This document shows, one piece after another, positions 6,942 to 10,388 of a DNA stretch of 58,872 nucleotides. The first letter of the stretch is position 1; each line of letters begins with the position of its first letter. The position numbers were made by a program, and so were the translations under genes. The stretch comes from a virus. The notes under the pieces were generated by a model. It did not search any database. It saw nothing but the letters and a program-made list of their open reading frames with translations, and was not told the origin of the DNA. Where the stretch lies: positions 1-58,872 of the IMG/VR virus record IMGVR_UViG_3300032896_000005. One strand, given 5' to 3'.

Positions 6942-9900
6942 ATGGCCCGCCCGAAGCAGCTTCCCCCCGACCATCCCAGGCATCATCTCCCGGATAAGAA
7001 CGGGTACCGCTGCCGGTGGGTTGACAAGGAAGGGGTGACGCACCTCTGCCAAGGGCAGGCTGACTGGTTCATCTGGCTTTTCATGGCAGGTCGGGGTTGC
7101 GTCGCCGGGGAGACTAGGATTTACCTTCCGATGGAGGGGCGGCATGAGCGAATTGACGTGCTTGCCCGTGCGGGGAGGCCGATCACGGTACTGTCGCTAA
7201 CGGAGGACGGGGCTCGGGCTGTTCGGACGGATGGCGCTCCGTTCGTCCGGGGAGCGGACCAGCTTTACCGGGTCAGCCTGGCTGACGGCAGCGTTATCAC
7301 TGTGACGGGTCGTCATCGCTTCCTGACCCCGCAAGGATGGCGGCGATTCGCTGACGTGCGCGTCGGACAGCTTCTAGCCGGCGGCGCTCCCGTTCCTCCG
7401 GAGGGAGGTTCCTCTTCCCTATCAGGGTTTCCCGCAGATGCGCGGCGTTGGAAGAATACAGTCGCAGATTCTCGATCCGGTTATCCGAGGTATCACCGTT
7501 ACGGTGGTCAACCACCTCAGTCGGAAGTAGATAACGACCAAGAAAATGCTCCATCACCAGACGGTGCTGACGCACATATCCAGATGATGTCGCATGCGGA
7601 TGACCGGGTGCCTTCACGAGAATGTACCCATCTTCATCTACAGAATAGCCTCCGCGCCAGAAGTAATTACGCTCCGGGCGGGCTTTCGCTTCCAGCCGTG
7701 GCAGGTCTAGCTCTACTAGACGCTGGCGAACTGTTTCCTCGTCGCAGTCTAGTATCTCAGCCATTTCACGACACGTCAGCTGCTGCGAGTGGAAATAACG
7801 CAGGCGTTCCTCGTCGAGGTAGAATCGACGGGCCTCTGACATCCGTTTCCGGGTGGCGGGAGTTTTCCGGTGACCGCGCAGTCGGACTCCGGCTCTCTGG
7901 AGGGCACGACCTACCGTCTGGTAGGAAACACCGAGCTGTTCTGCTAGATCTTTCAGATTCTCACCTGCCTGATAGCGCTCTATCAGTTCCGGGAGCAGCT
8001 CAGGAGGAACACGGGAAGACCCTGGCGACGGCATGTGCGGATGCTATCACGTGGGCGCGGGTGGCGGCTATAACTCCTGCTGGGATGGGATTGTTCTATG
8101 ACATGACAGTTCCCGGGGCGGAGAATTACGCCGCTGAGGGGCTGTGGAATCACAACTGCGGGAAAACCCTCGCCGGCGCTAACTGGATTATCGAGCAGGC
8201 CCTCACCTACCCCGGCACAAGATGGGCTGTCGTCGCGCCCACCTACGATCAGGTGCAGAACGTCTGCTTCGCCGCCGTTGACTCAGGGATACGCGCGCAG
8301 GCGCAACCCGGGGAGCTGGTTGATTACAACAAGAACAACATGCTCCTCACCATGAGCAACGGGAGTGAGATCAAGGGGTTCTCCGCTGAGAACCCGGAAC
8401 GCGTGAGAGGGTACAACCTCGCCGGCGCGTGGCTTGATGAGGTCGGCTCCTACCGGTATCGGAGTATCTGGGATGAGGTTCTCCAGCCTGCTCTCCGTAA
8501 AGGGGACCCTAAGGTCATCGTCACGACCACCCCCAGCGCTTCCCCGCTTTTGAAGGAATGGTACGAACGGTGGCTGTCCCACGCCAAGAAAGGCGAAACC
8601 TGCGATATCCACCTGACGTCGGCTGTTTTCAAGGAGAATGACACGCTCCCCCCGAAAAGGGTTGAGGATCTTGAACGGCAGTACGGCGGCACTAGGATCG
8701 GCCGTCAGGAGCTTGAGGGGGAGATGCTGGAGGACTTCGAAGGCGCTTTGTGGCGTCGGGAGTTCATCGAAGCGCACCGGGTGAAAGAATCCGGGTTCTT
8801 CCATGAGAACGGGAAACTGAAAACAGAATTGTTCTCCCGGATCGTCGTCGCGGTGGACCCGTCGATGACGTCCGGGGAACGGTCGGATGAGTCGGGGATC
8901 ATCATCGCCGGGCAGGGCACCGACAATGAGGCGTACATCATCGCTGACTGGTCCGTGAACGGCACCCCTGAGATGGTGATGGGCAGGGCCGTCGCCGCCT
9001 ACTACGAGTTCTACGCGGACTGCGTGGTGATGGAGGCGAACCAGGGCGGGGATTACCTCACGAAGGCTCTCCGCACCGCCGATCCGAACGTCCCCCCTCG
9101 TATTGTGCGGGCGTCGAAGGGGAAGCTGATCCGCGCGCAGCCGGTGTCGATGCTCGCGGAGCAGGGTCGCCTGCATCATATCGGGACGTTTCAGAAGCTG
9201 GAGGATCAGCTCTGCTTGGCGGCGGGGACGCTGATCACGGTTCCTGCCGGTAAGATCCCTATTGAGTCTGTGATCGCCGGCGAAAAAGTTTTGACGCGGA
9301 AAGGATGGCGTTCCGTCACCTCTGTTTCCTGCACAGGCGTCCGGGGAACAGTGGAAATCGAGACTGGTATCGGGAATCTCGTGTGCACTCCGGACCATCC
9401 TGTATTCGTCGAAGAAATAGGGTGGGTAGAGGCTGGTTTTCTTCGTCCGGGTGATAAACTTGTTACGTGCCTAGAAAAATTGTCTGACCTTACGTCGAGT
9501 TCAACGGCGAGAAGTATTTCCTTGAGAACACCGGATATTACCGGGCAAGTCGTTCTAGAGGAAGACGGATCTTGCACCGTGATATCTGGGAAGACGCCTA
9601 CGGGCCTATCCCTGACGGATATCACATTCACCATAAAGACCATGATAAGGGTCACAACTGGCTCTCCAATCTCGTTGCGGTCACCCCTTCTGACCATGTT
9701 CGCGCCCACGGGGTACGCGGAGCATGGGCGTTCGCTGGATAATCACAGGCATCCCTCGCCCGGGGAATCTGGTAACGTCGAAAGTCCGTCGGGCCTCTTC
9801 CTACGGGCAGGGCGTGCGCAGCGTGTGGAAATGAAATCTTCACTTACCGAGCCGATATTGCAAAGTACTGTGGTAGAAAGTGTGCGAAACAAGCGCAATA

Positions 9901-10388
9901 TCGTAGAGCCTGTCTACGATCTGACAGTTGAAGACGCACACGAGTTCTTCGCCAACGGGGTGCTTGTGCATAACTGCATGATGACGCCGGAGCAGGACCG
10001 GCTGCGTCATGATGACCGCGCCGACGCGATGATCTGGGCTGTCAGCGAGTTGCGGGGGATCACGGACGGGTCATGGTCGGAGGCGTACGGGTGGGTGTAC
10101 TGCAATTCGTGCGGGCACGGGTTCGCGCGGTTGCACCGGAAATGCCCGAAATGCGGGCATAACATTGACCCTGCGGGGGATTCTTCGTCGCGGAGCCCGG
10201 GGAGCTGGGCGTCAGCGTACATGAACTATTGCAAGAAATGCGGGAGTAATTTCAGTTTCCGGGAGAAGGAATGCCCGAATTGCAGTCCGCCGCCGGGGGC
10301 GTCCCTGGCGTTGGTGGGGCAGTACACGGGGAAGCAGAACTGGCTGACGTTCAAGCAGAACAACTGGCTGACGGGACGAAAATTCTAG
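6942..10388 (+). CDS. terL: Large terminase subunit containing two inteins
   Basis: The precursor is 1148 residues from ATG 6942; removing two inteins leaves about 541. Extein features: Walker A re-formed as AGRG-C-GKT, ATPase strand VAPTYDQVQN, Walker B WLDEVG, VTTTPSAS coupling motif, nuclease-domain VVAVDPSMTSGE and a last Asp cluster HDDRADAMIWA. The C-terminus adds two zinc-ribbon half-site pairs (YCNSCGHG, KCPKCGH; YCKKCGS, ECPNCS). No SD precedes ATG 6942, and protein-like sequence (DLPSDFDDWPDAVKK, then KKYFIDELHKKIPKPP) continues in frame upstream to about 6831 without ATG, GTG or TTG, so the true start may be a non-standard GTA at 6831. The enzyme cuts and pumps DNA into proheads. 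Confidence 0.93.
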   Translation: MARPKQLPPDHPRHHLPDKNGYRCRWVDKEGVTHLCQGQADWFIWLFMAGRGCVAGETRIYLPMEGRHERIDVLARAGRPITVLSLTEDGARAVRTDGAPFVRGADQLYRVSLADGSVITVTGRHRFLTPQGWRRFADVRVGQLLAGGAPVPPEGGSSSLSGFPADARRWKNTVADSRSGYPRYHRYGGQPPQSEVDNDQENAPSPDGADAHIQMMSHADDRVPSRECTHLHLQNSLRARSNYAPGGLSLPAVAGLALLDAGELFPRRSLVSQPFHDTSAAASGNNAGVPRRGRIDGPLTSVSGWREFSGDRAVGLRLSGGHDLPSGRKHRAVLLDLSDSHLPDSALSVPGAAQEEHGKTLATACADAITWARVAAITPAGMGLFYDMTVPGAENYAAEGLWNHNCGKTLAGANWIIEQALTYPGTRWAVVAPTYDQVQNVCFAAVDSGIRAQAQPGELVDYNKNNMLLTMSNGSEIKGFSAENPERVRGYNLAGAWLDEVGSYRYRSIWDEVLQPALRKGDPKVIVTTTPSASPLLKEWYERWLSHAKKGETCDIHLTSAVFKENDTLPPKRVEDLERQYGGTRIGRQELEGEMLEDFEGALWRREFIEAHRVKESGFFHENGKLKTELFSRIVVAVDPSMTSGERSDESGIIIAGQGTDNEAYIIADWSVNGTPEMVMGRAVAAYYEFYADCVVMEANQGGDYLTKALRTADPNVPPRIVRASKGKLIRAQPVSMLAEQGRLHHIGTFQKLEDQLCLAAGTLITVPAGKIPIESVIAGEKVLTRKGWRSVTSVSCTGVRGTVEIETGIGNLVCTPDHPVFVEEIGWVEAGFLRPGDKLVTCLEKLSDLTSSSTARSISLRTPDITGQVVLEEDGSCTVISGKTPTGLSLTDITFTIKTMIRVTTGSPISLRSPLLTMFAPTGYAEHGRSLDNHRHPSPGESGNVESPSGLFLRAGRAQRVEMKSSLTEPILQSTVVESVRNKRNIVEPVYDLTVEDAHEFFANGVLVHNCMMTPEQDRLRHDDRADAMIWAVSELRGITDGSWSEAYGWVYCNSCGHGFARLHRKCPKCGHNIDPAGDSSSRSPGSWASAYMNYCKKCGSNFSFREKECPNCSPPPGASLALVGQYTGKQNWLTFKQNNWLTGRKF
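7098..8156 (+). other. Intein 1, in the terminase Walker A motif
   Basis: 353 codons between GRG and CGKT. N-terminal splicing block A: CVAGETRIYL (Cys1 at 7098). Block B: VITVTGRHRFLT with the Thr-x-x-His pair. C-terminal blocks F and G: FYDMTVPGAENYAAEG and LWNHN, ending in His-Asn before Cys+1. All residues needed for protein splicing are visible. The central part (about 7390-8060) reads as low-complexity sequence in the intein frame because it is the complement of an HNH endonuclease gene on the other strand. Confidence 0.92.
7297..8034 (-). CDS. HNH homing endonuclease encoded antisense inside intein 1
   Basis: 245 residues, entirely within intein 1 but on the opposite strand. Domains in order: helix-turn-helix 1 (ENLKDLAEQLGVSYQTVGRA, about 25-50), helix-turn-helix 2 (TCREMAEILDCDEETVRQRL, about 80-110), a strand region with NYFWRGGYSVDEDGYI, then the HNH core GYVRQHRLVMEHFLGR, VVDHRNGDTSDNRIENLRL (about 140-200) and a basic C-terminus. 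The core is of the HNH_3 type common in phage homing enzymes. The ATG at 8034 has no obvious SD. The gene is intact, so the nuclease could be made independently of the spliced terminase. Confidence 0.88.
   Translation of the reverse strand: MPSPGSSRVPPELLPELIERYQAGENLKDLAEQLGVSYQTVGRALQRAGVRLRGHRKTPATRKRMSEARRFYLDEERLRYFHSQQLTCREMAEILDCDEETVRQRLVELDLPRLEAKARPERNYFWRGGYSVDEDGYILVKAPGHPHATSSGYVRQHRLVMEHFLGRYLLPTEVVDHRNGDTSDNRIENLRLYSSNAAHLRETLIGKRNLPPEERERRRLEAVRRARQRIAAILAGSGSDDDPSQ
9213..9974 (+). other. Intein 2, in the terminase nuclease domain
   Basis: 254 codons between LEDQL and CMMTPEQDRL. Block A: CLAAGTLITVPAGKIPIESV. Block B: NLVCTPDHPVF with Thr-x-x-His. Block F/G: EPVYDLTVEDAHEFFANG and VLVHN before Cys+1. 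A splicing-competent Hint domain is apparent. It sits where the terminase sequence would otherwise read LEDQLCMMTP, just before the last metal-binding Asp region. The insert between blocks B and F (about 9480-9800) is not a recognisable endonuclease in the intein frame; an HNH domain lies in another frame there. Confidence 0.9.
9467..9742 (+). pseudogene. HNH endonuclease overprinted in another frame of intein 2, with in-frame TGA
   Basis: One base out of the intein frame, positions 9488-9742 encode a typical small phage HNH enzyme: VEFNGEKYF, TGYYRASRSRGRRILHRDIW, YGPIPDGYHIHHKDHDKGHN, then WLSNLVAVTPSDHVRAHG and a TAA stop at 9740. A fitting start exists at GTG 9467 (Met-Pro-Arg-Lys-Ile-Val), but codon 7 is TGA (9485-9487). 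No ATG or GTG occurs downstream before the core; a TTG falls just before LHRDIW. Either the nuclease is dead by one nonsense change, the TGA is read through, or a truncated form is made. Confidence 0.8.

Follow-up and report, generated by a model that had tools for sequence, protein, structure and literature searches.

A decayed HNH gene nested out of frame in a phage terminase intein, and the intein family to which it very probably belongs

Our analysis indicates that the second of two inteins in the terminase large subunit gene (terL) of a virus is very probably a late-stage member of a widespread phage intein family, in which a separate HNH_3 and zinc-finger gene is nested in the -1 frame of the intein. 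In the usual description, an intein either combines a splicing domain with an endonuclease in the same frame or is a mini-intein that lacks the endonuclease. We consider it likely that a nested, independently translated nuclease is instead the prevailing architecture of a large phage intein clade, reached separately by several nuclease lineages (HNH_3 with zinc fingers, sense -1; HNH with zinc fingers, sense +1; EDxHD/Vsr-like, sense +1; HTH-HNH, antisense; DUF559-type, antisense), with the intein frame as a blank page on which no demand is made except freedom from stops.

The anatomy, conservation, frame bias, selection pattern and decay of the nested loci were observed directly. In working members, the ribosome would make TerL and the intein in one frame and the intein would splice itself out; where the intein overlaps the nuclease gene, its sequence would be an unconstrained linker that has only to remain free of stops. 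The nuclease would be translated by internal initiation from its own start just past intein block B and would end within block F. Its cleavage of intein-free terL would be followed by repair, in which intein and nuclease would be copied as one. The same principle would apply to intein 1, with an intact antisense HNH gene.

Two terL inteins and their overlapping HNH genes

The window, meaning the whole stretch of DNA that was analysed, is a virus record of 58,872 bases, in which terL is a single open reading frame (6942-10388, plus strand, 1148 aa with both inteins inside, Pfam matches to Terminase_6N and Terminase_6C) rather than a fractured gene with a split intein. Intein 1 (7098-8156, plus strand) lies in the Walker A P-loop (GRG/CGKT, with slashes marking insertion points throughout), and intein 2 (9213-9974, plus strand, 254 aa from Cys1 to Asn, +1 residue Cys at 9975-9977) lies near the TerL nuclease motif (LEDQL/CMM). 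Two viral relatives, L002 and L003, with TerL 70-75% identical, have neither intein and align across both sites, which represent empty sites. Exactly two HNH_3 domains are found in the whole record, one hidden in each intein, and both HNH genes overlap the intein instead of being fused to it, as the preliminary description of this DNA had proposed. A double zinc-ribbon is seen at the TerL C-terminus (10090-10330), also in L002 and L003, and in both of these relatives other, unrelated-looking HNH-type genes adjoin terL (2600-3900 in L002, 5400-6100 in L003).

The frame of intein 2 (position mod 3 = 0, the terL frame) is open across 9213-9974 and gives an above-cut-off match to Intein_splicing (PF14890, E=9e-12), together with Hint families and TIGR01443. 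Blocks A, B, F and G are all present, as C1, TPDH and VYDLTVEDAHEFFANGVLVHN followed by the +1 Cys (that is, Cys1, TxxH, the terminal His-Asn and Cys+1). AlphaFold models residues 1-87 and 212-254 as a Hint fold, mostly with pLDDT >94, and the best PDB match of the model in Foldseek is the Mtu RecA mini-intein (2imz). Between these parts lies a linker (9471-9842, plus strand) that is the intein-frame reading of the overlapped nuclease gene and has no predicted fold, residues 90-206 being mostly below pLDDT 50, which suggests that it is disordered. One way in which the preliminary description could have failed was for the intein frame itself to encode a nuclease domain, the HNH match being chance; in Pfam the intein 2 frame matches intein and hint families alone, with no nuclease family, and HNH_3 (PF13392) is found in the other frame (E=4.5e-14, 52.2 bits against a curated cut-off of 24.8). 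The HNH is thus not an in-frame homing-endonuclease domain: its core, RRILHRDIW...DGYHIHHKDHDKGHN...SNLVAVTPSDHVRAHG, sits in frame 2, which is -1 to intein 2, one frame over as had been noticed.

The hidden gene, as delimited by family alignment and profiles, runs from a GTG to a TGA at 9467-9931 (plus strand). The GTG is followed, after five sense codons, by the in-frame TGA (9485-9487) seen earlier. The HNH_3 core (9572-9703, E=2.3e-15) comes next, then a TAA at 9740-9742, which is where the preliminary description had ended the gene, and a further TAA at 9773-9775. Read past the first of these TAAs, frame 2 continues into the remnant of a C-terminal CxxC...CxxxC zinc finger (9806-9925) and a TGA at 9929-9931, an end that had been overlooked. 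A profile of 68 relatives, built with the window left out, finds the core with i-E 2e-24 and the zinc finger weakly, with i-E 5e-6. Both ends sit where the family would place them: GTG 9467 is 254 nt after Cys1, an offset identical in seven of the 68 relatives, and TGA 9929-9931, 46 nt before the end of the element, is one of the two commonest stop positions. Most relatives have a linker and a first zinc finger that are absent from the window gene; an uninterrupted short version in the Rhodobacteraceae phage LS06 lacks them as well.

The window copy is a pseudogene, because TAA 9740 and TAA 9773 break the frame besides TGA 9485, so that no uninterrupted HNH_3 reading frame with a start is left. 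A single sequencing error as the cause of the broken frame, which the preliminary description had raised as a way in which the TGA might mislead, is unlikely, since two stops exist beyond it; the TGA moreover leaves the intein frame intact. A short product started at a TTG (9572-9742) may still be made, with the HNH core alone. No close relatives of intein 2 were found from which the stops might be dated, the nearest HNH being 53% identical. Intein 2 should still splice but should not home by itself: its autonomous homing is probably lost because the HNH gene has three nonsense codons. The window would then offer a snapshot of decay, in which a nuclease dies by nonsense changes and the intein that overlaps it survives.

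Intein 1 carries an intact gene for an HTH and HNH_3 endonuclease of 245 aa on the opposite strand (7297-8034, minus strand; HNH_3 E=4.1e-12). A search by the intein frame gave no close relatives of intein 1; they were found instead through the antisense HNH, in L099 and L100, where the protein is 85-87% identical and nested at the same P-loop site (the whole element is visible in L099, and a contig end cuts it in L100). Compared with L099, dN/dS is 0.11 for the antisense HNH and 2.08 for the overlapped intein frame, with 0.11 and 0.09 for the intein parts flanking the overlap. The antisense HNH is under purifying selection, and intein 1 can probably still home.

The nested -1 HNH family

Matches in terL were found by tblastn in Tetrasphaera phage TJE1, phage LS06, a gut phage scaffold and Acinetobacter phage Highwayman. 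The layout of the window recurs in TJE1, LS06, MT838676 and Highwayman, where the HNH genes are uninterrupted and likewise in the -1 frame; in the annotated records of TJE1, LS06 and Highwayman, all three that were checked, the nested nuclease has no annotation. An alignment-based scan of IMG/VR gave 80 loci, and further scans and GTDB genomes added more, the loci being classed by profiles for the intein N part, the intein C part and the HNH. These HNH-seeded scans yielded 96 nested loci (94 distinct ones, including the window, after removal of two duplicates), along with 9 broken or split, 32 without an intein and 7 partial; some contigs are redundant, and related copies do not stand for independent events. 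All nested loci have the HNH in one and the same frame and a stop-free intein frame, and no in-frame HNH was found among the loci of these scans.

Of the 94 distinct nested copies, 85 have an uninterrupted HNH with a start. Two lack a start, the window being one of them, and seven were flagged for stops; several of these flags may reflect a profile match running past the natural stop. Among the 68 loci analysed in detail, the HNH starts 236-299 nt after Cys1 in nearly all and stops within or adjoining block F. The insertion site is mostly a DNH/xDALRY motif, and the flanks of ten diverse nested loci, read by eye, are TerL. The element of L135 (from an Armatimonadota MAG) lies at the window's own site; its HNH frame is uninterrupted, and its GTG is at 269, an offset usual for the family. 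The HNH is modelled by AlphaFold with pLDDT 94, its best PDB match being a weak one to I-HmuI (E 0.06, probability 0.90).

The reading frames of these genes bear the mark of the overlap. In the 68 nested HNH genes, the intein frame contains no stops where synonymous shuffles predict 160 (the loci are related, so that the test does not amount to 68 independent trials), while the other sense frame of the same genes has 1271 stops against 1365 expected, and in seven non-nested relatives the equivalent frame has 3-13 stops, in line with expectation. Both for the nested HNH family and for the antisense HNH of intein 1, the frame that the intein uses is, of the five alternatives, the one least prone to stops; this may be why these frames were viable. 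Across the 25 closest pairs, dN/dS of the HNH, where computable, is 0.09-0.49 and mostly <0.3, and that of the overlapped intein frame is 0.6-2, with one pair at 6.9, and mostly about 1 or higher. With HNH starts picked as the candidate nearest the usual offset, disregarding any Shine-Dalgarno match, 60% of starts have a Shine-Dalgarno match of at least 4 bases against 23% of background windows, and 29% have one of at least 5 bases against 6%.

These observations bear on other ways of explaining the window. It is very improbable that the HNH began as a normal domain in the frame of the intein and was displaced by paired indels in this phage. An in-frame endonuclease domain is the classical intein layout and the window copy is decayed, as that history would have it, but the related nested loci are all out of frame and, as counted above, mostly uninterrupted, no in-frame relative was found, and the HNH genes have their own start codons with Shine-Dalgarno enrichment. 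The same enrichment, at starts in a fixed place, argues against production of the HNH from the intein frame by programmed -1 frameshifting or TGA readthrough, which we consider highly improbable. The -1 frame of the HNH and an A-rich run (GAAAAAT) ahead of the TGA would suit a frameshift, but a -1 shift there would run into TGA 9485; in most relatives, stops ahead of the nuclease start close the nuclease frame, and other nuclease families (see below) are +1 or antisense, beyond the reach of -1 frameshifting. As for readthrough, the window copy has three in-frame stops of two kinds, and readthrough is not needed.

HNH genes are common in phage introns, and the element might on that general ground be taken for a group I or group II intron with an HNH reading frame and incidental intein similarity. 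No tool result favours an intron here, and we give this reading very little credence: intein blocks A, B, F and G and a confident hint fold are present, the frame is open in all members, dN/dS is about 0.1 outside the intein 1 overlap, and Rfam finds no intron family at E<=1. A match to sR42 at 8881-8945 was below the Rfam gathering threshold and is taken as chance. Long alternate frames are common at 60% GC, but that the HNH reading is a chance similarity in such a frame is next to inconceivable given the Pfam E-value, the conserved zinc finger and about 94 homologous loci under purifying selection, AT-rich phages included.

Nested nucleases of other types

A separate survey was blind to nucleases: it searched viral contigs for a DNA pattern of the intein end FANG[VIM]LVHNC, and is a sample of a single C-terminal consensus rather than a census. 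Among the matches listed, 69 of 80 loci held both the N part and the C part of an intein in one open frame (L159 and L208, among the 69, were settled by reading the ORF), and 62 of these 69 inteins carried an out-of-frame nuclease, one a nuclease in frame (a LAGLIDADG) and six none. Clustering of the matches listed at 85% gave 63 groups, 56 of them out of frame.

Pfam was run on representatives of each new nuclease type, other members being assigned by sequence reading. The matches listed comprise 45 inteins with HNH_3 in the -1 frame (one a 136-residue intein with a short HNH match), four with a different HNH (PF01844) in the +1 frame, ten with a DUF559 gene in the +1 frame, which we take to be of the EDxHD/Vsr-like family (L178, L184, L186, L188, L204, L207, L226, L227, L159 and L208), and three with an antisense gene of DUF559/MTES_1575 type, where the nuclease comes with an HTH or zinc fingers (L230, L165 and L203). 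Two antisense survey matches taken for HNH were reclassified as zinc fingers of DUF559-type nucleases. The +1 nuclease genes have no stops in the intein frame against 6-16 expected for each, and for the EDxHD genes the intein frame used is not the least stop-prone of the alternatives. Comparison of the EDxHD inteins L159 and L208 gives a dN/dS of 0.14 for the nuclease and 1.22 for the overlapped intein frame, with a third value of 0.19. Of the antisense cases in the survey, L203 alone departs clearly from chance.

The preliminary description had suggested that free-standing HNH genes repeatedly invade mini-inteins in any orientation, provided that the intein frame stays open. This agrees with the many phage inteins that carry nuclease genes in several sense frames and antisense, always with the intein frame open, but repeated invasion in any orientation is not supported for the HNH_3 and zinc-finger family, which keeps one frame in all the nested copies found.

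History of the association and known systems

The same HNH family also occurs free-standing, beside terL in PAE1 and EauM-23 and beside terS in BP10, and between the halves of split inteins, as in L085 and Lactobacillus phage CL2 (L151). Fractured genes with split inteins are found in L085, L083, L076 and L151. Over about 200 residues, an HNH tree has 11 changes of the nested or non-nested label against a shuffled mean of 18.6, with some free-standing copies placed among nested ones, and the tree gives no direction of change. Some conversions between nested and free-standing forms therefore occurred, but in the HNH_3 and zinc-finger family the distances between inteins correlate with those between HNHs (Mantel r=0.37, against a maximum of 0.14 in 2000 permutations). 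This correlation points to intein and HNH being an old unit, mostly moving together, and the one frame kept by the HNH family implies co-inheritance. A free-standing origin of the nested HNH is plausible, because the family also exists free-standing and between split-intein halves, and would fit a scheme resembling collaborative homing, where a stand-alone nuclease with terL as its target joined an intein at its cutting site.

Two kinds of arrangement were known already, the out-of-frame HNH insert of ShiLan and fractured genes with split inteins, and the strongest new point is the general survey. The ShiLan insert has an out-of-frame HNH with zinc fingers and no splicing domains (PMC11855218). 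It resembles the loci described here in that the HNH gene lies in another frame of an insertion, likewise -1 to the host, with the host frame left open, and in a disjunct distribution that suggests homing. It differs in the missing splicing domain and in that the insert is believed to stay in the protein, and its HNH is only weakly similar to the family in the window. In intein 2, unlike ShiLan, an intein domain is present and would remove the translation of the hidden gene, so that the essential terL could be invaded. Pacc40 gp60, which came up through an intein BLAST match and the same paper, was set aside as having, by eye, an ordinary in-frame LAGLIDADG-like motif (GYLSGDGHY).

Classical large inteins, with in-frame LAGLIDADG or HNH domains, share the Hint fold and a homing nuclease between blocks B and F; the nested nuclease differs from theirs in lying in another frame or strand with its own start and stop, and the intein-frame linker in having no domain. 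The phrog_15471 HNH endonuclease and the free-standing HNHs beside terL in PAE1 and EauM-23 belong to the same HNH_3 and zinc-finger protein family but are not nested. Fractured genes, in which a homing endonuclease is interposed in a split intein, were reportedly described by Dassa et al. in 2009. They too involve genes of terL type, inteins and a separate nuclease gene, and L085, L083, L076 and CL2 look alike in this respect; the nested form differs in that the host frame is uninterrupted, the intein acts in cis and the nuclease overlaps the intein rather than parting its halves. In the literature searched we found no other reports of nested out-of-frame intein nucleases. A 2025 preprint by Gosselin et al. 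on non-canonical actinobacteriophage inteins, cited in PMC11855218, may overlap with these results, as its title suggests unusual architectures, possibly including overlapping nuclease frames.

Intein annotation would change if, as the surveyed loci suggest, many inteins that pass for mini-inteins, with what looks like a junk linker, hold a complete nuclease in a different frame, under selection. The arrangement also bears on the origin of mobile inteins, by the union of a free-standing gene with an intein as in collaborative homing, and on that of split inteins, since the same HNH family sits between their halves. Should nesting indeed prevail, loss of the nuclease by indel would be tied to loss of an essential gene. 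The loci moreover amount to a large natural collection of gene pairs that overlap, one frame of each pair having only to be stop-free, and this is useful for measuring selection on overlapping genes.

In L085, L086, L088, L083 and L076, terL is split at an intein, and between the two halves stands a free-standing gene of the HNH family described here. In both CL2 and Brochothrix phage BL3 (L148), the end of the annotated large-terminase CDS appears to fall inside a split intein. CL2 has the C half downstream of its HNH gene, BL3 has an HNH remnant, and the annotations of these two phages seem to omit the C-terminal part of the terminase.
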